A stretch of DNA of 58,673 bases. Source: Opitutales bacterium (GTDB taxonomy: Bacteria; Verrucomicrobiota; Verrucomicrobiia; Opitutales; Oceanipulchritudinaceae). The DNA lies in assembly GCA_020831485.1 (NCBI GenBank), contig JAFIGG010000014.1, forward strand, positions 1 to 58,673, in the 5' to 3' direction. A model generated the notes under the pieces. The model saw only the letters and a list, made by a program, of their open reading frames with translations. It was not told the origin of the DNA and searched no databases. Positions 43,980 to 57,701 of the stretch are shown piece after piece. How positions within the stretch are numbered: position 1 is the first letter of the stretch; every line of letters begins with the position of its first letter. The position numbers and the translations under genes were made by a program.

Positions 43980-44080
43980 ATTCTTAATTCCTAATTCGTA
44001 ATTCTTGATGGAGTGCGTTGGATTGGCCTTCCGCCCTCGGGACGAGCGCGGCTACGTAGGTGCGGCGGTCCCCGCTGCAC
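43979..44080. repeat. Heptamer-armed intergenic repeat element, copy A
   Basis: Four 7-base units, AATTCTT, AATTCCT, AATTCGT, AATTCTT (43979-44006), are followed by a core (44007-44056; GAGTGCGTTGGATTGG, CCCTCGGGACGAGCGCGG, CTACG) and a hairpin GTGCGGCGG-TCC-CCGCTGCAC with one G-T pair (44060-44080). The core is clearly homologous to copy B at 57735-57784 and more weakly to copy C at 45241-45280. The rest of the gap to 44151 shows nothing further. Confidence 0.75.
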
Positions 44081-45392: not shown

Positions 45393-46508
45393 ATGCGACT
45401 GGACCGTTATATATTTTTCGAATGGCTAAAGGTTTTTCTGCTGTCGCTGTTGGCGATTGTTGGGATTCTGATGCTGGAAGCGATCCAGAATGAGTTGCAG
45501 GACCTGCTGCGCTTTGGTGCTACCTGGCGCGAAGTGCTTCAGTATTATGCGATCCTGACGCCTGGCTTTTTGCCGTTGGTACTGCCGATTTCGCTGATGG
45601 TTTCAGTGCTGTTTGTGCTGGGGCAATTTCATCGCCACCAGGAAATTGTAGCCATGCGCGCCTGTGGGCTCAGCCTTTGGCGCATTACCAGGACAATCTG
45701 GCTCGCGGGCGCCGTACTGGCAATTTCCCTGTTCGAGTTGAACGGGCGGATCACCCCCTGGTCGATCGAGCAGTCGCGGACCATTTACGACAATTTACGC
45801 TTTGCCAGCGAGCTGATCGAAGTGGAAGAGGAAGATGTCGGATTGATCTATAATCTGACCTTCATCAACCACTCCGACAACCGCATGTGGTTCATCAACC
45901 GCTTTAACGAATACAATTACCGGGCCTATGGCCTGACGGTCTCCGAGCTGGGGCCGACCGGGGTCGAGGAGCGCCGCGTGGTGGCCAATGAAGGTTACTA
46001 TGAACCGCACCGGGCGCACTGGGTCTTCCTGCGCGGGCGCACCTTTGATTTTGATCCTGCGACGGGCGACCCGATTCGCAGCCTCGGGTTCGACAGTCAA
46101 GTGCTGGAGGGCTATTACGAAGATCCCGAGCTGATGAAGTTTCTCGAAAAGCGGCCCAAAGACCTGTCCTTCAACGAATTGAGCCAGATTCTTTCGTCCC
46201 TTGATCCCGATCAGGATCCACGGGTTGCTGCCTATGCGGTGCAGTATTACGGCATGCTGATGAACCCGTTGAGTTGCCTCATTGTGGTCGGCCTGGCGAT
46301 ACCCTTCGCCGTTGCCGGAGTGCGCACGAATCCAATGGTTGGCGTATCCAAAGCTATGGGCCTTTTCCTAGCGTATTATGTGCTCGCTCAGGTCAGTCAC
46401 CTCATGGGAGGTGGTTTGCTCAGTCCCTTTGCCGCAGCTGCCATCCCGAATCTGGTAGCACTGGCTGCCGCACTCTGGTTTCACTACCGAGCCACCCGGC
46501 CGGCTTGA
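45393..46508 (+). CDS. LptF/LptG-family permease (YjgP/YjgQ)
   Basis: A 371-aa inner-membrane subunit of the LPS exporter LptB2FG. Three hydrophobic segments in the first 110 residues are followed by a periplasmic beta-jellyroll-like domain (about 130-280) and three more segments in the last 90 residues. This is the YjgP/YjgQ layout, with the family's typical ILMLEAIQ, PLVLPISLMVSVLFVLGQF and NPLSCLIVVGLAIPFA segments. F and G paralogues cannot be told apart from one gene, and no second paralogue, lptB or lptA is in the window. It begins soon after repeat copy C and converges on the receiver gene 9 bases downstream. Confidence 0.9.
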   Translation: MRLDRYIFFEWLKVFLLSLLAIVGILMLEAIQNELQDLLRFGATWREVLQYYAILTPGFLPLVLPISLMVSVLFVLGQFHRHQEIVAMRACGLSLWRITRTIWLAGAVLAISLFELNGRITPWSIEQSRTIYDNLRFASELIEVEEEDVGLIYNLTFINHSDNRMWFINRFNEYNYRAYGLTVSELGPTGVEERRVVANEGYYEPHRAHWVFLRGRTFDFDPATGDPIRSLGFDSQVLEGYYEDPELMKFLEKRPKDLSFNELSQILSSLDPDQDPRVAAYAVQYYGMLMNPLSCLIVVGLAIPFAVAGVRTNPMVGVSKAMGLFLAYYVLAQVSHLMGGGLLSPFAAAAIPNLVALAAALWFHYRATRPA

Positions 46509-46517
46509 ATTGAACAA

Positions 46518-46979
46518 CTACAGGGCGTAGCGGCAGGGATCGACCCGGTTCAATTCATTGCTCTCGCCCCCTTCGGAAAGAAAGTTGAGGCGAAACAGCA
46601 GCTCCTTCAGCAGCTGCACTTTCAGGGGTTTGGTCATGATTCCGTCCATGCCCGCTTCGCGGCAGGTTTTCTCTGACACGGTTGAGGCCGTCACAGCTAT
46701 GATATTGGGCTGCTTCAGGCTCTTGTCCGAGCGGATTCTCCGCGCAGCGTCCAGACCGTTCAGTATCGGCATGTCGATGTCCATGAGGACCAAACCGTAA
46801 GCGCGTCGATTCAGGGCTTCCAGAGACTCTAGGCCGTTGTTGACCAAGTCACAGCGCAAACCGACGTGTTTCAGCATTAGCATCATCATGCGCTGGTTCA
46901 GGTGGTTGTCTTCAACCACCAGAATGCCTTCGCTTTCCGGCTCCGTCTGGCCGTGCCTGTTTTGGGATATCCAGAGCAC
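46518..46979 (-). CDS. Stand-alone response-regulator receiver protein
   Basis: A CheY-type receiver of about 153 aa: the acidic pair is Glu23-Asp24 in ILVVEDN, the phosphoacceptor is Asp67 in VLMDIDMP, with Thr97 and Lys117 in MTKP. No output domain; a short tail ends CRYAL. The sequence is of the kind found as C-terminal receivers of hybrid kinases. The reading frame stays open upstream but overlaps the YcaO-like gene, so I take GTG 46979, 4 bases after that gene's stop, as the most likely start; this is uncertain. It could receive phosphate from the hybrid kinase at 48328, or be a remnant of a larger hybrid kinase. Confidence 0.72.
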   Translation of the reverse strand: MLWISQNRHGQTEPESEGILVVEDNHLNQRMMMLMLKHVGLRCDLVNNGLESLEALNRRAYGLVLMDIDMPILNGLDAARRIRSDKSLKQPNIIAVTASTVSEKTCREAGMDGIMTKPLKVQLLKELLFRLNFLSEGGESNELNRVDPCRYAL

Positions 46980-46983
46980 AGGA

Positions 46984-47889
46984 TTACCAGAAGAAGAAGT
47001 TACTGTCTGCGTCCAGATACTCACGGGTCGGCATTGGCAAGACCACTCGCCAAACCCGTGCATAACGATCCCATGGCCCCTTGATTTCACAATCGATCAA
47101 TGGCTTTACTTTCGAGGGGGCCGATTCGCTGACCGACTGACTCAGGCGGCTTTGAAACTGACGATGGCCTTCCGCCAGGGAATAATACACCACCCGGCGC
47201 TCCTGATAGTTTTCGATTACGGAAAGGTCACCGATCTCGAAGCCAGGGTTTTCTTTGTAGAACCGATCGAGCACATGCAACGACCGGTCCATTTCCACAT
47301 ACGCCTTCCAAATGGCATCCTTCAGCTTGCGGGCTGAAGCGAATCCATAAGTATAATAGCCCTGTGGCGACAGCTTCCAGATAAGCACCACCCGGTCCTT
47401 GGAGGCCGGATTGCGGATTTCGACGCCGTCAATGGGCAAGTCGGACGCCGGCAGGGGCTTGGTGGGAAGAAGGCCTTCCCACCAAGAGACCAGGCAGTAA
47501 CGTTCTGCTGCCTCGGCCAGCGCCTTACGCCGGGCCTGAAACCGGAACAATCCGGGAAAGGCCGACATACCGTTTGAAGAGGCATCCACATCGAAGCCGT
47601 ATTGAGCGGCTTTCGGGGTGCCACAAATTACATACATCGCCCAACGTTCCAAGGCTTCAGAGATTGCAATGTAGCGTGCCAGCATGGGCGAGCGGTGAGT
47701 GCCCGAGCCGTCGGCGTTGCTGTAGATCTGAAGGCGGGACTTTTTGAGCCCCAGACTGCCATTCAGATAGGCATTTGCCTGATAGAATGGACTGCCCAGT
47801 ATGTCGACTCGCCCATACTCAATGCGTTCAATCGGTCCGGATTGAGAACCCAGAATATTGGCGTAGCGTAGAGGTGCGATGTTGAACAT
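46984..47889 (-). CDS. Stand-alone YcaO-fold protein (301 aa)
   Basis: YcaO enzymes use ATP to activate peptide amides, making azolines, thioamides or amidines. The ATP/Mg-binding signatures are visible: GSGTHRSPMLARYIAISEALERW, with Glu78, Glu81 and Arg82; then SSNGMSA (104-110) leading to ALAEAAERY with Glu126, Glu129 and Arg130; then AYVEMDRS near 196-203. At 301 aa it is at the short end of the family and carries no fused E1-like or ThiF domain. The C-terminus is FFFW, without the Pro-rich tail of azoline-forming members. A 57-aa peptide gene lies 45 bases upstream on the same strand and a receiver domain lies directly downstream. No dehydrogenase, TfuA, protease or transporter neighbour is seen. 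Substrate unknown; a RiPP role is inferred. Start ATG 47889 lacks a clear ribosome site. Confidence 0.8.
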   Translation of the reverse strand: MFNIAPLRYANILGSQSGPIERIEYGRVDILGSPFYQANAYLNGSLGLKKSRLQIYSNADGSGTHRSPMLARYIAISEALERWAMYVICGTPKAAQYGFDVDASSNGMSAFPGLFRFQARRKALAEAAERYCLVSWWEGLLPTKPLPASDLPIDGVEIRNPASKDRVVLIWKLSPQGYYTYGFASARKLKDAIWKAYVEMDRSLHVLDRFYKENPGFEIGDLSVIENYQERRVVYYSLAEGHRQFQSRLSQSVSESAPSKVKPLIDCEIKGPWDRYARVWRVVLPMPTREYLDADSNFFFW

Positions 47890-47934
47890 GGCTGGGAAAG
47901 GTTGGAGGCGGGAATGTTTGAGAGTTAAGAAAAA

Positions 47935-48108
47935 TCAGCGGCCCTGACCATTGCCACAAGGCAGTGCACAGGAAATCGATTGGTCAATTTGAGTGATTTC
48001 ATCGATGGAGGTATCTAGAAAACCCGGGTCGATCCATTCGGCAGCGCGAACAAGACCACAGGTGACAAGGAGACAGGCAGTGAGTTGAAGAATGTTTTTT
48101 AATTTCAT
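47935..48108 (-). CDS. 57-aa secreted-type small peptide, possible YcaO substrate
   Basis: The sequence begins MKLKNILQLTACLLVTC, a signal-peptide-like N-terminus with probable cleavage after VRA at residue 22. A short mature part of about 35 residues follows: acidic (FLDTSIDEITQIDQ), then SISCALPCGNGQGR at the C-terminus, rich in Ser, Cys and Gly. AGGAG lies just before ATG 48108, one of the better ribosome sites in this window; an upstream in-frame start (48159) is less likely. It is followed on the same strand by the YcaO-like gene. The Cys/Ser/Gly-rich end is what a YcaO-modified core could look like, but a Sec-type signal is unusual for known YcaO precursors, so an unrelated small envelope protein is equally possible. 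No homologue recognised. Confidence 0.6.
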   Translation of the reverse strand: MKLKNILQLTACLLVTCGLVRAAEWIDPGFLDTSIDEITQIDQSISCALPCGNGQGR

Positions 48109-48191
48109 AACTCCTGCAGTTTCCTGCCTATTAGACCCCGGAACAATCTCCCCAATCACCTTAAATTAGGTGTAAAATATTCTTGACAACT

Positions 48192-51300: not shown

Positions 51301-52224
51301 GGGACTGGCCTGGGCCTTTCGCTCTGCCACGATTTTGTCAAGCGTCTGGGTGGTTCCATGCAGCTGTTCAGTGAATACGGTGAGGGCAGCACCTTTACCG
51401 TGACGATCCCGGTCGGGCTGCAGGCGGCGCAGCCGCCGGCCGCATTGACGGCCGACCAACCGGCCCTGCCGACTCTGCGTGTCCTGGTGGTGGAAGACCT
51501 CGAATACAACCGTCTTTTCCTCGAGGACTGGCTGCGCGAACAGGGCTGTGTGGTGAACACCTGCGTCGACGGCGAGTCGGGCTATGCGGAGGCGCGGTCG
51601 GGGCACTACGATTTGATCTTTCTCGACTGGGATCTGCCGCGCATGTCCGGCCTGGAAGTCGCCCAAAGTCTGCGCAAGACAGATTCTCCGGCCAGTCAGG
51701 CACGCATCATCGGCATGACGGCCTTTGCGACCATGGAAACCCGCAAGGCCTGTCTGGATGCGGGTATGGATACTTTCATTACGAAACCGATATCGGAAGA
51801 TCGCCTGCTGGCGGTCCTGCGCGAGGCAGCCGCTTCGACAGGCGTGCCTGCAGCCGTCTCGGAGCCTACAACCGAGCCGGAGGTCGACTGGGAAGTGCTA
51901 GAACGCATGTCCAAGGCAAAGCAGGTGCCGCTGTCCAGCGAGTTTGAGCGCTTTCTGGGCATACTTGACGAGCAGCTAGAGGAGCTCGAGAGCACTCTCA
52001 AGGGGAGCGACCTGGAAGCGGGTCGTCACCAGATTCACGCGATGCTGGGGCACTCGGGCTTGATCCGTTTTCAGGCTTTCACCGAAGCGGTTCTGGATCT
52101 TCAGGTGGCCTTCCTTTCCGAAGATAAGCTGGGCGTCGAAACAGAGTGGCAGCGCGTGCAGCAAGCCCGCCGCAGACTCGATGCCGTGCTGGCAGAGCTC
52201 AAGCAGGGGAGTGCAGTCCAGTGA
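48328..52224 (+). CDS. Hybrid sensor histidine kinase, propeller-type sensor, receiver and HPt domains
   Basis: A 1298-aa one-protein phosphorelay. A signal/membrane segment is followed by a long periplasmic sensor (about 30-660) of beta-propeller type with repeated LWIAAFN/LWFSAPG-like blades, then a YYY-type Ig domain (about 660-745) and one membrane helix (about 755-776). The cytoplasmic part has HisKA with His814 in SHEIRNPLNG, HATPase with NLVGNAVKFTD and DTGPGIPEEE and GTGLGLS, a receiver (about 1053-1170) with Asp1100 and Lys1153, and an HPt domain with likely His1237. The architecture resembles sensors of polysaccharide breakdown products in Bacteroidetes and Verrucomicrobia. It lacks a DNA-binding output, so it must signal onward. 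The stop overlaps the SIS gene (GTGA), linking it to an amino-sugar operon it may sense for. Confidence 0.9.
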   Translation: MSVRPLCFLFCCLQGLFVGAGLLVAGGWNVDYGLPLMERFGSESLDPDRYIWTAFEDEDGVLYFGQDHLLRFDGSHWSRLGPSGLDVLRGVDVDASGRLWIAAFNEIGYFPAGDWQQGSFVSLRSHLPEEWRDFGEAWSLHSRGDEVWMASGSRIYRWDGDAFEVWPIAADSRVIFHFDAEGIFYHVAGQGIYRFDEGQSTLYADDPDLARFSQVLWQSVGSGRYLGVSLDGFFEWSSNRRELLHRHRCSELYQAVPAAAVRLDDGRIVVATLQSGLLFYSADYELELRLDSASGAPSDLVTGLKLDSEGGLWAFFSGALLRLDLKRPGGQFSADSQLPSGVVRGVARMDGRYRIATDQGLFEQLETDNGSITNFARLSGEGLRNDFYPVPGSDGRDMLVVEYGSIHYWRDGTVKGTHPTDGYIRALSPSHQAPGQFWVLLDQAFALLEWQEDDGWRSVQQMQDLPTVAEYIHEDRQGRLWFSAPGSALVMGDWTEGGELQLQTFRSPAGFNLEERNWLLIPWGKSVALVSAAALCVYEEDSWHLASLPEGGLPAPPWLAVEWTEDSLFMVCRSGDGEQAKLVRLERDSAGSARIQPFHHPGWQSLGSPRGIQLSGTAEQAMLHLWGGRGILNMSLDMSTHIERPRKPVLKEWRVDGELIDTVAAARPRIAFDYSEMQVAFASTGFRAARPYQYQLRLGGEDAQWGGLSSQSRRELGRLLEGEYYLAIRAVDANGRASEALVLSFQILPPWYRTVWAYGSYLFTIGMGIWIIVYYRERNLRKRKRMLEQLVAQRTLELEKASRIKSDFIANMSHEIRNPLNGVIGLISRLRPGEAVPERHQQALRRAAQYLQTTVEEVLDFSRIESGHIELNIQAFDPESILEGVIEIYSERAVSKKLKLTFSPRNAGAWQVISDPSKVQQIAGNLVGNAVKFTDKGGVHLGLSIDEVEAGKGLLKFWVQDTGPGIPEEEQKKVFGKYYQIQREGDDSHRAGTGLGLSLCHDFVKRLGGSMQLFSEYGEGSTFTVTIPVGLQAAQPPAALTADQPALPTLRVLVVEDLEYNRLFLEDWLREQGCVVNTCVDGESGYAEARSGHYDLIFLDWDLPRMSGLEVAQSLRKTDSPASQARIIGMTAFATMETRKACLDAGMDTFITKPISEDRLLAVLREAAASTGVPAAVSEPTTEPEVDWEVLERMSKAKQVPLSSEFERFLGILDEQLEELESTLKGSDLEAGRHQIHAMLGHSGLIRFQAFTEAVLDLQVAFLSEDKLGVETEWQRVQQARRRLDAVLAELKQGSAVQ

Positions 52225-53771
52225 CGGAGCTGAGCAACCCGCTGGCTTCCCCGGAGGCTTTCCTCGCTACTGGTGAAACCTTCCGCCTGGGCTTCCTGCC
52301 AACGGAGCAATCGCATCCGGATTCACAGAATCTGGACCGCCTCGCCCGGCAAGATCCGCAGGCTGCTCTGGACTGCCTGCAGGGGGTCGATGCGAAGGCT
52401 TGGAGGGCGATCGACGAGGGCCTCAATGGATTGGAGACGTTGGCCGCCGACCTGAAGACAGTATTGAATACGGGTGGGCGCATCTTCGTCGCTGGTTGCG
52501 GTGCCACCGGTCGCCTGGCGCTGACTCTCGAAAGCTGGTCTCAGGTGGGCTGGCTGCCGGGGCTGAGGCCGGGCCAGATTGTCGCCTTCATGGCGGGCGG
52601 CGATGCGGCACTGGTCCGCTCGCTGGAGGGTTTCGAGGACCACCCGGAGTTTGGACGCCGTCAGCTGAACGACCTGGGATTCAACTCCGAAGATTTACTG
52701 ATCGGCGTGACCGAAGGCGGCGAAACGCCTTTTGTCATTGGCGCAACCGAAGCTGCCTCTGAGCAGTCGCGCCACGCAGCCTGGTTCCTGTTTTGCAACC
52801 CGATTGAACCGCTGCTGCGCATCGAGCGCTCCCGGCGTGTAATTGAATCCGACCGCATCCGCAGCCTGCCACTGGTCACCGGGCCACAGGCGGTCGCGGG
52901 CAGCACCCGCATGCAAGCCTCAAGTGTGCTTCTGGCCGGGCTCTGGCTTGCAGTGACGGCTATGGCGTCCCCGGGCTCGCTGCGAGCGCACTGGAGCAGT
53001 CTCAAACAGCGCCTGCAAAGCCACAGCTACCGCGATATCGCCGACTTTCCGATTGTCGAAAGCGAACAGTATCAGAACGGCAACTACGTGCTTTACACCG
53101 CAGAGGAAAGTGCCTTGAGCGTCCTCACCGATACCACCGAGCGCGCGCCGACCTTCAGCTTGGTGCCATTTGAAAATCTCCTCGAGTCGGCGGATGCATT
53201 GTCACTCTGCTACCTGTCGATGCCTTCCGCTCCGACTGCAGCCCTGGCCTGGCAGCGACTGCTTGGGCGCTCGCCGCGCACGGTGGAATGGCCGCAATTG
53301 AGCGCCCGCAGCGGACTACAGCGCCTGCTCGGCTTTGATATCTCCCGCCAGGCCGCACAGCGCCGTCAGCAGGCCGCGGCGCCCGCTGCCAGCGACCCCT
53401 TCCGGGTCGCCACTTCGCCTGCCGGTATTCAATGGCAGTTCAAGGATCAAAGCCTTGAGCTGGCCACACCCGGCTGGTCGCAGCCAGAGCAACAGTTGCT
53501 CTTGAAGCTACTGCTGAATGCGCATTCGACTTGCCTGATGGGCCGCCTGGGCCGTTACGAGGGCAATTGCATGACCTGGGTCCAGGCCTCCAACGGAAAG
53601 CTGATTGACCGCGCGGCCCGCACCGTGCAAATGCTTTATCAACGCCAGCGTTCACGAGGGCTGGATTACGAACAGGCGGTGCGCGCGGTGTTTGCCGTCC
53701 GTTCGCAGCTCAAACCAGGACAACCGGTGGTAATGCCGGCCCTGCAACTAGTGTTGAAAGCGAATCTATGA
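52221..53771 (+). CDS. SIS-domain protein, MurQ / glucokinase-regulator-like
   Basis: A 516-aa protein with SIS motifs of the N-acetylmuramic acid 6-phosphate etherase and GCKR group: GCGATGRL at 92-99, AGGDAALVRSLEGFED at 125-140, GVTEGGETPFVIGA at 162-175 and GSTRMQA at 227-233. Bacterial MurQ is about 300 aa, so this is a long member with a second SIS-like half, closer in layout to the glucokinase regulatory protein. Role by context: it handles a phosphorylated amino sugar, either cleaving the lactyl ether of MurNAc-6-P or sensing a sugar phosphate. GTG 52221 is chosen because it overlaps the upstream stop (GTGA); upstream in-frame codons lie inside the kinase gene. The stop overlaps the symporter start (ATGA). 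Confidence 0.82.
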   Translation: MTELSNPLASPEAFLATGETFRLGFLPTEQSHPDSQNLDRLARQDPQAALDCLQGVDAKAWRAIDEGLNGLETLAADLKTVLNTGGRIFVAGCGATGRLALTLESWSQVGWLPGLRPGQIVAFMAGGDAALVRSLEGFEDHPEFGRRQLNDLGFNSEDLLIGVTEGGETPFVIGATEAASEQSRHAAWFLFCNPIEPLLRIERSRRVIESDRIRSLPLVTGPQAVAGSTRMQASSVLLAGLWLAVTAMASPGSLRAHWSSLKQRLQSHSYRDIADFPIVESEQYQNGNYVLYTAEESALSVLTDTTERAPTFSLVPFENLLESADALSLCYLSMPSAPTAALAWQRLLGRSPRTVEWPQLSARSGLQRLLGFDISRQAAQRRQQAAAPAASDPFRVATSPAGIQWQFKDQSLELATPGWSQPEQQLLLKLLLNAHSTCLMGRLGRYEGNCMTWVQASNGKLIDRAARTVQMLYQRQRSRGLDYEQAVRAVFAVRSQLKPGQPVVMPALQLVLKANL

Positions 53772-55243
53772 GTTGGATCGACCTTACTATCCTAGTGTTC
53801 TACTTCATCGCGATCGTCGGTGTCGGCCTCTATGCCGGGCGCCGCGAAAAGGACAGTCGTGACTTTCTGATCGGCGGCCGTTCCGTGCCATGGCCCGCTG
53901 TGCTCGGTTCCATCGTGGCTACCGAGGTCAGCGCCGCGACCTTCCTCGCCGTTCCAGGAGTGGGCTTCTCCGAGAACATGAACTACCTGCAGTTCGGCAT
54001 CGGTTCATTGGCGGCCCGTTTCTTCATCGCCTTCATCTTTATTGGGGCCTTTTTCTCCGCCGAATGTTTCAGTATTTATGAATACCTGCGCAAACGCTTC
54101 GGCCACCGCAGTCAATACACCGCCTCGGCCTATTTTCTGGTGACACGCCTGCTGTCCTCAGGCGTTCGCCTGATGATCGCCGCCAGTGGAGTTTCGGTGA
54201 TTCTGGACATCCCACTGGGGCTTTGCCTGCTGGTTTTTGCTGTGCTGACCATTGCCTACACCGCAATGGGTGGGATCAAGGCGGTGATCTGGACCGATTG
54301 CATTCAGGCGGTGGTTTTCCTTTCCGCGGGCATCGGCCTGCTGAGCTACATCGTTTACCGCATCGGCTGGACCGAATGGTGGTCGACCGCGGGCGAGGCC
54401 GGACGATTTGAAGTCCTGCGCTTTAGCTCGGAAGAGGGCAGTGACCTCTGGTCCTTGCTGGCCGATCCGCAGTGGTTCTGGATCGCGGTGTTGTTCGGCT
54501 TTGTCAGTAGCGCCGCCGCCTTCGGCACCGATCAGGACTCCACTCAGCGCATGCTCAGTTGCCGCAATGCCAGCCAGGCCCGGCGCAGCTTGATCCTCAG
54601 CGGCTTTGTCGCCATCCCCGTGGCTACACTTTTTCTGCTGATCGGCACCGCCCTGTTTGCCTTTTATCAACTCTATCCCGACCCCTCGCTGCCGGAGTCG
54701 GCCGACGAAGTTTTCCCCTGGTTCATCATCCGCGAATTGCCGGTGGGCTTGAAAGGCCTGCTTTTGACCGGCGTCGTGGCGGCGGCCATGTCCAGCCTGG
54801 ATTCCGCAATGGCCGCGCTCGGTTCTTCCGCCGTAGTCGATCTGGTCAAGCCGCTGCGCAAGCGGGCCTTGAGCGAGACCCAACTGCTGTGGACTTCGCG
54901 CGTGCTCACCGTTGTGTTCGCCGCTACCATCACCCTCATCGCCTGGGTCCTGCAGGATGGGGGCCGCTTCCTCTGGCTGGCCTTTCAGATTACCGGGATC
55001 ACCTACAGCGGTTTGCTGGGAGTCTTCCTGCTGGGCCTGATGACCAATCGCGGTTCCGACGCACTGAATCTCTTTGCCATGCTGGCCGGCTCGGGACTGG
55101 TGATCCTGCTGCTGGTTTTCGATCAACTGGGCCGGGGCTTTATTGGCTGGACCTGGTTCCTTTTCCTCGGGACCCTCGTCACTTTCACCATTGGACTGTT
55201 CGGAAAACCCCGAACCAACGATCCCGATACCCATCATGCTTGA
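53768..55243 (+). CDS. Sodium:solute symporter family transporter
   Basis: A 491-aa inner-membrane protein with about 13 hydrophobic helices. The SSS family pattern is clear: AGRREKDSRDFLIGGRSVPW near the start, TEVSAATFLAVPG, AMGGIKAVIWTD, FGTDQDSTQRMLSCR and VAAAMSSLDSAM. Members take up sugars, sialic acid or amino acids with Na+. Sandwiched between a MurQ-like protein and a GH20 hexosaminidase, it most likely imports an amino sugar such as GlcNAc, MurNAc or anhydroMurNAc, by context only. It overlaps both neighbours, by 4 and 8 bases. Confidence 0.92.
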   Translation: MSWIDLTILVFYFIAIVGVGLYAGRREKDSRDFLIGGRSVPWPAVLGSIVATEVSAATFLAVPGVGFSENMNYLQFGIGSLAARFFIAFIFIGAFFSAECFSIYEYLRKRFGHRSQYTASAYFLVTRLLSSGVRLMIAASGVSVILDIPLGLCLLVFAVLTIAYTAMGGIKAVIWTDCIQAVVFLSAGIGLLSYIVYRIGWTEWWSTAGEAGRFEVLRFSSEEGSDLWSLLADPQWFWIAVLFGFVSSAAAFGTDQDSTQRMLSCRNASQARRSLILSGFVAIPVATLFLLIGTALFAFYQLYPDPSLPESADEVFPWFIIRELPVGLKGLLLTGVVAAAMSSLDSAMAALGSSAVVDLVKPLRKRALSETQLLWTSRVLTVVFAATITLIAWVLQDGGRFLWLAFQITGITYSGLLGVFLLGLMTNRGSDALNLFAMLAGSGLVILLLVFDQLGRGFIGWTWFLFLGTLVTFTIGLFGKPRTNDPDTHHA

Positions 55244-57701
55244 ATCCATTCCATTTCGTTTCCGTCCCCGTGAACTCGCCGCCATCGCCGGCGCACCGGG
55301 ACTCCAAGCCGATCCCAGTATTGCAGTTGAGATTAAGGCCGACCTTCCGCCCAACGGCTTTCAGATTCGCTGGCAGGGCGCCGAGGCCCATATCCGTGCT
55401 GCCGATGCTGCCGCCGAACAGTATGCGCGCGGGCTGATCGAGGAGCTGAGTCAGGGCCCCCTCAGAGAGGGTCTCGAAATTCCGGCCCTGGAAGTCGCCG
55501 ACTGGCCCAATTTTATCCACCGCGGCTACATGCTCGACATCAGTCGCGATCGCGTGCCGACCACGGACCGTCTCCGCCAGCTGATCGACGAGTTGGCGAC
55601 TCTCCGCTACAACGAGTTGCAGCTCTACACCGAGCACACCTTCGCCTACAAAGGGCATGAGGTGGTCTGGGGCCGTTCCGGGGCGCTGACCGGCGAGGAG
55701 ATCCGTGCACTCGACGACTACGCTGCCGATCGCAACATCGAGCTGGTGCCGAACCAGAACTCCTTCGGCCACATGGAGCGCTGGCTCAAGCACCCCGAAT
55801 ACCGTCACCTTGCCGAATGCCCGGACGGTTTTATCCACCCCGGCGACGGTAAACGCCGCACGGTTGGCAGTGTCTTGCTCCCTTGCCAGGAATCCCTCGA
55901 CTTCGTCGACAGACTTTACCGGGAGTTACTGCCGAATTTCCGCTCCAAGCGCTTTCACATCGGTGGCGACGAGGCTTGGGAACTGGGCCTCGGCCGCTCG
56001 GCCCTCGAGCCCGATTTTCCCGGACGCGCGGCCATTTATGCCCGCTTTCTGCGCCAGCTTATTGAGCTCTGCGAGCGCCACGACCACAGCCCGCTGGTCT
56101 GGGCGGATGAATTGCTCAAAGACGGCGATGTCCCCGGTGACTTCCCGGCCTCTGCCACCCCGGTCATCTGGGGCTACGAGCCGGGCCATCCCTGGGAAGA
56201 GCAGATTGCACGGGTTCAGAAGGCCGGTTGCAAATCCGTCTACCTGGCCCCGGGCACCTCCTGCTGGAACAGCTTCAGCGGCCGCTACCAGTTTGCCTGG
56301 CAGAACCTGCGCGAATGCGCCGAGGCCGGCAGCCGCAACCGTTGTCAGGGCATCCTGGTCACCACCTGGGGAGACCACGGCCACCATTTTCCCTGGGTTC
56401 TGCAGTATCCGGGGATGACGCTCGGTGCCTGGGCCGGCTGGAATCACGGCCTGATGGATGAGCTGCCGCTGGATAAGACGATCGACAGCGTTTTCGGCCT
56501 GGCCGATGGGGCAGGGGAGCTGCTCATCGATTCAGCCGCGGTGGAGTACAAACACCTGAAATGGATTCATAACGAGTCCCGCATCCACAATATGTTTCGC
56601 TCCGCCGATGCCGCCGAACGCCGCCGCTGGGCCGGCGACCACCCGATCGAGACCTGGCAGGCCCTTCGGGCGGATATCGAAGCGCTGCGCGAGCGCGCCG
56701 CAGTCTGTGCCGATGCCGTCGTCGGCCGCGACGTCGGCCTCATGCAGGACTTCAACCTGCTGGGCGTCGAGCGCGCCTTTGCCGTGCTCGAAGGCCGTAG
56801 CGAAACCCACTTGCGGTCGCGCTTTTTCGAGCTGCTTGGCCGCCATGAGGAGAGCTGGATGCGCGAAAGCCGTCCCGGCGGTCTGCCGGAGAGCATTGAC
56901 TTTTTGCTGGGGGATGTCGCCTCGATGACACCCGTCGCCACCTTTCCCTCCCTGGTATTCAGCCGCAGCCACCACATTCAGGGCTACGAAGTCGGAGCCC
57001 GCCGCACCGCCAAGTTTTCGACCCTGTTGAATCAGTTTCAGGACATTGCCGAATCCCACGCCGCCGAGTTAGGCGTCTCCCTCGATGCCCTTAAGGAGAA
57101 AGGGATGCTCTGGGTTCTCTCCCGCTACCACATCCGTATGCACAGCCTGCCAACCGTCGGCGACACCATTTCCATCCAAAGCTGGCCTAGCGCCTGGGAA
57201 CGCCTCTTTGCCATTCGCGACTTTCGCGTCTGTGCCCCATCGGGCGAGGAAATAGGCGTCGCCAGCTCCGCCTGGTTAGTGGTTGAAGCCGACAGCTTTC
57301 GCCCCGTTCGCGGCAAGGACCTCCTGCCCCAGTTTCGACTTCACCCCGAACGCGCCCTCGTCGCCGAGTGGAAAAAGATCTCCCTCCCGGACCATTTCGA
57401 TCACCAGCGCGACTTTCAGGTCATGCACCACGACCTCGACGTCAACGGCCACGTCAATAACGCCGTCTACGCCGTCTGGGCCCTCGAGTCCGCCCCCGAT
57501 TCCTGCTGGCAAAACCACCGCCCCATGGAAATGGAAATCCAGTTCCTCGCCATGGCCTTCGCCGGCGAAACCGTCCGCGCCGAAACCTCCGTCCAACAAT
57601 CCGGCAGCACCTACACCCTCCACCACCGCCTCCTCAAACAATCCGACAATACCGAACTCATCCGCGCCCGGAGCCATTGGCAAGGCCTTGCGAATGGCTA
57701 A
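55236..57701 (+). CDS. GH20 beta-N-acetylhexosaminidase fused in frame to acyl-ACP thioesterase
   Basis: One open frame of 821 aa holds two complete-looking enzymes. Residues 1-563: a GH20-type TIM barrel with NFIHRGYMLDISRDR and the catalytic pair Asp245-Glu246 in HIGGDE, ending RPGGLPESIDFLLGD, which looks like the natural end of the enzyme. Residues 564-821: an acyl-ACP thioesterase double hot-dog with Asn737 and His739 in DLDVNGHVNN, beginning at an in-frame Met (ATG 56925). There is no signal peptide, so the hexosaminidase should act in the cytoplasm on imported sugars. The enzymes share no pathway I know. A run of five G (56909-56913) lies 11 bases before that ATG. With four G the first enzyme would end MSR-stop, with TGA overlapping the ATG, exactly the ATGA junction common in this window. 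The fusion may therefore be a frameshift. Start ATG 55236 overlaps the symporter stop by 8 bases. Confidence 0.85.
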   Translation: MLESIPFRFRPRELAAIAGAPGLQADPSIAVEIKADLPPNGFQIRWQGAEAHIRAADAAAEQYARGLIEELSQGPLREGLEIPALEVADWPNFIHRGYMLDISRDRVPTTDRLRQLIDELATLRYNELQLYTEHTFAYKGHEVVWGRSGALTGEEIRALDDYAADRNIELVPNQNSFGHMERWLKHPEYRHLAECPDGFIHPGDGKRRTVGSVLLPCQESLDFVDRLYRELLPNFRSKRFHIGGDEAWELGLGRSALEPDFPGRAAIYARFLRQLIELCERHDHSPLVWADELLKDGDVPGDFPASATPVIWGYEPGHPWEEQIARVQKAGCKSVYLAPGTSCWNSFSGRYQFAWQNLRECAEAGSRNRCQGILVTTWGDHGHHFPWVLQYPGMTLGAWAGWNHGLMDELPLDKTIDSVFGLADGAGELLIDSAAVEYKHLKWIHNESRIHNMFRSADAAERRRWAGDHPIETWQALRADIEALRERAAVCADAVVGRDVGLMQDFNLLGVERAFAVLEGRSETHLRSRFFELLGRHEESWMRESRPGGLPESIDFLLGDVASMTPVATFPSLVFSRSHHIQGYEVGARRTAKFSTLLNQFQDIAESHAAELGVSLDALKEKGMLWVLSRYHIRMHSLPTVGDTISIQSWPSAWERLFAIRDFRVCAPSGEEIGVASSAWLVVEADSFRPVRGKDLLPQFRLHPERALVAEWKKISLPDHFDHQRDFQVMHHDLDVNGHVNNAVYAVWALESAPDSCWQNHRPMEMEIQFLAMAFAGETVRAETSVQQSGSTYTLHHRLLKQSDNTELIRARSHWQGLANG

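Follow-up and report, generated by a model that had tools for sequence, protein, structure and literature searches.

The question raised by this locus is what a stand-alone YcaO protein does next to a very short peptide gene and a signalling gene. We analysed a stretch of 58,673 nucleotides from an Opitutales bacterium (hereafter the window), whose minus strand carries, in order, a gene for a 57-aa peptide, a YcaO gene and a gene for a lone receiver, which begins 4 bases past the YcaO stop and is the final gene of the operon (Table 1). Open reading frames and Pfam place these three genes where a preliminary description of the sequence had put them, the YcaO scoring above the PF02624 cut-off of 25.7 bits, and no output domain was found on the 153-aa receiver. 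The peptide itself has no match in Pfam; it is recovered with an E-value of 8e-16 by an HMM of its family, of which it is itself a row. The genome harbors a single YcaO. As that description had also stated, TfuA is missing (no match to PF07812 in the genome at E <= 1), and no C or ocin-ThiF partner is present in the cassette or conserved among the neighbours examined. No Rfam element was found between positions 44000 and 52500, and scans for sigma-70 promoters and terminators gave counts no higher than in shuffled sequences. The receiver gene converges with a gene coding for a 371-aa membrane protein (45393-46508), which reads as LptF from its sequence.

Table 1. Features of the YcaO locus, with positions numbered along the window.
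Feature	Position	Strand	Details
Precursor peptide gene, 57 aa	47935..48108	-	ATG 48108, stop 47935-47937; family of 82 peptides
Peptide leader and core			Leader about residues 1-28, MKLKNILQLTACLLVTCGLVRAAEWIDP; core about residues 29-57, ending in SISCALPCGNGQGR
Stand-alone YcaO, 301 aa	46984..47889	-	PF02624, 31.1 bits
Single-domain receiver, 153 aa	46518..46979	-	GTG 46979, stop 46518; PF00072 (Response_reg), 75.5 bits
Palindromic operator (predicted), CACCTAATTTAAGGTG	48157..48172	.	Family motif YACCK-N6-MGGTR; 64 bp 5' of the peptide start codon
Divergent hybrid histidine kinase, 1298 aa	48328..52224	+	Pfam, sensor model, synteny

The cassette belongs to a large family. A search with an alignment of the YcaO family recovered about 80 loci in GTDB, almost all of them in Opitutales and four in Bacteriovoracia; a scan of GTDB contigs for close relatives, with the window YcaO alone as query, returned nothing. 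A YcaO of this clade is present in 13 of 55 relatives and in 40 of 373 genomes across the order, and in a phylum-wide sample the clade was confined to genomes of the same order. The peptide model matches 38 of the 373 genomes, 34 of which share the YcaO, the four peptide-only matches being weak (E 4e-4 to 0.006) and lying inside frames of 245-556 aa. Genomes with the YcaO and no match to the peptide model are G082, G095, G105, G114 and G126, all of family f21, and G175. Three genomes harbor a pair of YcaO systems with a separate peptide for each (L004/L017 in G006, L005/L016 in G011 and L008/L015 in G048).

The preliminary description had asked whether a short peptide gene always precedes this YcaO. 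A related peptide lies just 5' of it in 74 of the 75 Opitutales loci having upstream sequence; the same pattern was absent from all 4,013 control windows and preceded a single one of 485 other ORFs with 300 aa or more, so that the pairing is not due to chance. The sole exception (L091) looks like a decayed second copy, since its kinase frame is in two parts and the same genome harbors an intact locus (L042). Peptide homologues remote from any YcaO, which would have spoken against the pairing, reached only marginal scores in the 373 genomes, and YcaO genes with no upstream peptide occur only at the edges of the family, in the four Bacteriovoracia loci (L089, L090, L092 and L093). There, no recognised peptide is present and the YcaO lies directly 3' of a mutually related gene, which is SBP_bac_5 by Pfam in L093 only, with a HATPase kinase nearby in L090 and L093. 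These loci show that this YcaO clade is able to work in a different setting. In one locus (L019) the YcaO at 1840 is preceded by two precursor-like peptides that differ from each other, arranged in tandem at distances of 733 and 555 bp.

The peptides have a conserved and hydrophobic leader (about MK...LG..SSLLL..GF..AA..LDP) and a variable core, for example SSAFSELPCQF or GCAQLPCYHRDF, an arrangement of leader and core encoded beside an enzyme that is the one expected of a RiPP precursor. Their genes are under purifying selection at the codon level (pN/pS 0.24-0.66 between related peptides). Most cores have one or two Cys, with Cys after residue 28 in 78 of the 82 peptides and a single one after that residue in 30. 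Three peptides lack Cys anywhere (L020, L021 and L067) and a further one lacks it in the core (L050), a point against a modified-peptide signal; in Cerasicoccus, L050 and L067 have Thr at the position where L073 has Cys (PTYPTEV and PTFPTEV, versus PTWPCEV). The Sec-type leader that had been proposed fits most of the family: 62 of the 82 peptides pass a crude signal-peptide rule (N-terminal positive charge, hydrophobic core and AxA-like site), but about a quarter fail it, including those of Cerasicoccus and Coraliomargarita, which counts against reading the module as a signal. The conserved LDP sits past the predicted cleavage site. We read the leader as a putative YcaO recognition helix, doubling as a Sec signal in most species. 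Weak matches of two peptides to Phr_nterm (E 0.017) were dropped, as they resemble generic signal-peptide similarity.

We regard multi-core repeats as the best evidence for RiPP-like precursors. The core is repeated two to five times in six precursors (three copies in L085, L086 and L027, five in L081, two in L096 and L053), and the repeats differ synonymously with their amino acids barely altered (pS 0.58-0.96, pN 0.016-0.092). Selection thus holds the amino acids of every copy, and each repeated core is therefore probably a product. The fixed adjacency, the co-occurrence and the multi-core precursors make it very likely that the peptide is the substrate of the YcaO, in line with what adjacency and composition had first suggested.

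A phosphorelay partner had also been seen in the cassette, in the form of the lone receiver. Signalling genes do belong to it, and the sampled genes 3' of the YcaO bear kinase or receiver domains, but the lone receiver is confined to some loci (the closest relative, L018, has one at the same place). This receiver is a variable add-on, and the role of constant phosphorelay partner falls to the divergent hybrid kinase, which had been overlooked. A divergent hybrid kinase of about 1,300 aa is encoded in all 71 Opitutales loci where the contig extends far enough to tell, a count that leaves aside six loci with a contig ending too early and the four of Bacteriovoracia. By an ORF-cluster criterion it is present in 70 of 81 loci, to which L052 adds one in a longer frame, and its frame is interrupted in some MAGs (L025, L060 and L091). 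The window kinase is organised as a periplasmic double propeller with a Y_Y_Y-like domain, a TM helix, HisKA, HATPase, receiver and HPt, and so has the Reg_prop propeller, HisKA, HATPase and receiver of a Reg_prop-type hybrid kinase. Pfam scans of 35 of these kinases identified HisKA and HATPase in 35, a receiver in 34, Reg_prop in 26, Y_Y_Y in 22 and HPt in 20; H814 of HisKA and H1237 of HPt are invariant and D1100 nearly so. The model of the sensor (pLDDT 83.7) has its best PDB matches in BT4663 (4a2m/4a2l, E 1e-28), and on this model the sensor is a periplasmic double propeller of the BT4663 type. The usual companion of the divergent kinase is a REC-LuxR regulator: among the regulators flanking it, 40 of 40 have a LuxR-type HTH (GerE) and 38 of 40 a receiver. 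The window has no flanking regulator, and an orthologue, 54% identical to that of L018, is encoded elsewhere in the genome (G000:C60). Genes 3' of the kinase (52146-57701) code for an apparent SIS/MurQ-type etherase, a sodium-solute symporter and a hexosaminidase-like protein, as read from their sequences.

A phased dyad, YACCK-N6-MGGTR, was found in the 330 bp 5' of the peptide gene in 34 of 72 loci, where a background of 0.007 per locus in the rest of the same sequence predicts 0.5; because the motif was discovered in these same upstream regions, the count does not come from an independent set, and the support for an operator comes from how regularly the sites are placed and how rare they are in the background. 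Most sites lie 64, 86 or 107 bp before the peptide gene, distances that differ by about two helical turns, and L052 has three copies spaced 22 bp; the operator was not detected in 38 of the 72 loci, which counts against the signal reading. Stronger forms of the dyad recur in some other Opitutales genomes (6 in G307, 6 in G367 and 3 in G029, with 0 for the reversed control), and these sites lie at the promoter of the peptide, 5' of response-regulator genes and close to further genes. The same palindrome was seen near response regulators, receiver or kinase genes, a gene for an exported protein of about 211 aa and an ABC-permease-like gene, named from their sequences (L180, L182, L185, L188, L189 and L192), and may mark a regulon there. 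In the window genome no regulon is readable, since the short form of the dyad is no commoner than its control (6 sites versus 5 for the reversed one); a second dyad, CACCT-N6-AGGTG, at 46398-46413 inside the 371-aa ORF, was set aside as a chance occurrence on the same counts.

We lean, by a modest degree, towards reading the whole module as a RiPP signal with its receptor, comprising precursor, YcaO modification, Sec export, propeller kinase, phosphorelay and operator feedback. The operon would yield a short precursor made of a hydrophobic leader and a variable core. Once modified, the peptide would be directed to Sec by its leader, a route that we propose because no transporter is encoded beside it, and one or more cores would be freed by proteolysis; neither a dedicated protease nor an exporter was found near the cassette, which counts against this reading. 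The double-propeller sensor of the kinase would perceive the product, either within the periplasm or from outside, and phosphate would pass from H814 to D1100, then to H1237 of the HPt domain and on to a response regulator of the LuxR type, whose gene adjoins that of the kinase in most loci and lies in trans in the window genome. This regulator may bind the palindrome 5' of the peptide gene and activate the operon, resulting in autoinduction.

The chances that the peptide is the kinase ligand appear to us evenly balanced. To our knowledge, BT4663-type sensors with a known ligand bind oligosaccharides, which counts against a peptide. The distances of YcaO and kinase correlate (Mantel r 0.93), as vertical descent alone could produce. 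A partial Mantel signal in which the leader tracks the YcaO and the core tracks the sensor was lost under polynomial or rank controls and in a restricted set; this covariation was not used because it is not robust once saturation is controlled, and the pairing of ligand and receptor consequently draws on synteny. Next to twelve Reg_prop-type kinases that are not beside a YcaO, no such peptide was found in the sequence covered, several of these loci stopping before the kinase start.

The heparin-sensing type of the sensor would suit a peptide that is a YcaO-modified RiPP with an antimicrobial, metal-binding or envelope job, the kinase sensing another cue, for example a polysaccharide fragment, and switching its production on. 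The apparent sugar-use genes that follow the window kinase fit this alternative, as does the resemblance of the Cys-bearing cores to the bufferins, copper-binders with a Sec signal (PMC12452194). However, no immunity or transport gene is conserved, the single Cys of many cores is poor for chelation, and the kinase stays with the peptide-YcaO pair across genera while the other neighbours change. We consider a non-signalling role unlikely.

The modification step of the signal-and-receptor reading concerns the YcaO itself. Its AlphaFold model has a pLDDT of 94.6, and the top Foldseek matches are YcaOs (E 6e-7). VIA Z-scores range from 12 to 16.7 across 237-267 residues for most YcaOs compared, with 16.7 for McbD (4.4 A over 267), 15.9 for a Methanopyrus YcaO, 15.7 for LynD, 15.1 for the YcaO peptidase 7u58 and about 12 for E. 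coli YcaO. As a PDB sequence search gave no significant match (best E 0.71), the fold rests on Pfam and on the structure model, according to which the window protein has a YcaO fold. The ATP site comprises a Glu/Arg set that we take to be E75, E78, E191, E199, E202 and R203 in E. coli YcaO numbering. In the HMM alignment the equivalents of E199, E202 and R203 are kept in 79, 78 and 73 of 79 sequences, and those of E75 and E78, matched by motif instead of HMM alignment, in 79 of 79. The equivalent of E191 is Gln in 55 of 79 (Q118 in the window YcaO) and Glu in 5, and that of R203 is lost in one subclade, with Tyr in five sequences and His in one; both changes count against modification. Within the ATP-binding set, whose loss had been named beforehand as a sign against the idea, R203 is lost only at this edge. 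E202A served as the inactive control for E. coli YcaO (PMC13063428). From its conserved residues, the enzyme is probably ATP-using. A C-terminal PxPxP is the mark of azoline-forming (TOMM) YcaOs; in this clade the C-terminus is not PxPxP but FFW-like, the window protein ending in FFW and W being present in 57 of 79.

The changes at E191 and R203, together with the place of 7u58 among the structural matches, would fit a YcaO that cleaves the peptide at the expense of ATP, the peptidase activity reported for 7u58, or that serves it as a chaperone, the signal staying unmodified. Multi-core precursors need cutting, yet no dedicated protease is encoded. We judge this improbable, as the azoline-forming McbD and LynD score equal or higher and a nucleophilic Cys (Thr in some peptides) is retained near the C-terminus. 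In a further alternative, the YcaO would modify another protein (kinase, regulator or ribosomal protein), and the peptide, small and exported, would regulate the kinase independently. This recalls both uL16, the non-RiPP substrate of E. coli YcaO (PMC13063428), and the Bacteriovoracia YcaOs beside SBP_bac_5-like genes with no recognised peptide, but is made very improbable by the near-perfect peptide-YcaO linkage in Opitutales. For the RiPP signal, then, we propose that the leader would be recognised by the YcaO, which would carry out an ATP-driven modification of one residue in the core. The likeliest target would be the Cys conserved towards the C-terminus, replaced by Thr in two Cerasicoccus peptides. 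Our first guess at the product is an azoline (-18 Da); a thioamide (+16) or an amidine is possible.

In its most specific form, put forward tentatively and at slightly under even chances, the proposal is that of a YcaO-modified, Sec-exported peptide pheromone, which a hybrid kinase perceives through its periplasmic double propeller and which feeds back positively on its own production. It is with the same reserve that we suggest that it may constitute a class of Gram-negative cell-cell signalling, widespread in Opitutales, with species-specific cores, some of them in tandem. If true, a RiPP-based family of peptide signalling would be added to a Gram-negative phylum for which the literature searched shows no peptide quorum sensing, and BT4663-type sensors would gain a non-sugar ligand. 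Moreover, work on the chemistry of such YcaOs would gain a small clade of partner-free enzymes, supplied with dozens of natural substrates, multi-core ones included. Some hosts are apparently cultured (Cerasicoccus and Coraliomargarita), and the module is therefore testable.

Neither the partner-free YcaO nor the Sec leader on a RiPP is as new as initially supposed, both being already known; it is their combination with this type of signalling that is absent from the literature searched, which lay mostly outside subscription titles and never joins a YcaO to it. Bottromycin and streptamidine (PMC8442711) likewise pair a YcaO independent of any E1/ThiF protein with a nearby gene for a short precursor; they belong to Actinobacteria, have other precursors and tailoring enzymes, and a two-component module is not described in the available part of that source. 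The MNIO RiPPs, bufferins and oxazolins (PMC12452194), share with the window a Sec-type leader and a short Cys-bearing precursor ahead of the enzyme gene, whereas they rely on an MNIO enzyme and its DUF2063-type partner and their known role is copper binding, not signalling. In the peptide pheromone systems Agr and ComQXPA (compare PMC4008528), precursor, modifying enzyme, histidine kinase and response regulator adjoin as they do here, but these systems are Gram-positive, AgrB or ComQ takes the place of the YcaO, and their kinases are without a propeller sensor. Finally, the Bacteroides BT4663 hybrid system shares the periplasmic double propeller followed by Y_Y_Y, HisKA, HATPase and receiver; BT4663 senses heparin/heparan sulphate, whereas the window kinase has an HPt-like domain at its end and keeps a fixed place beside the peptide-YcaO pair.
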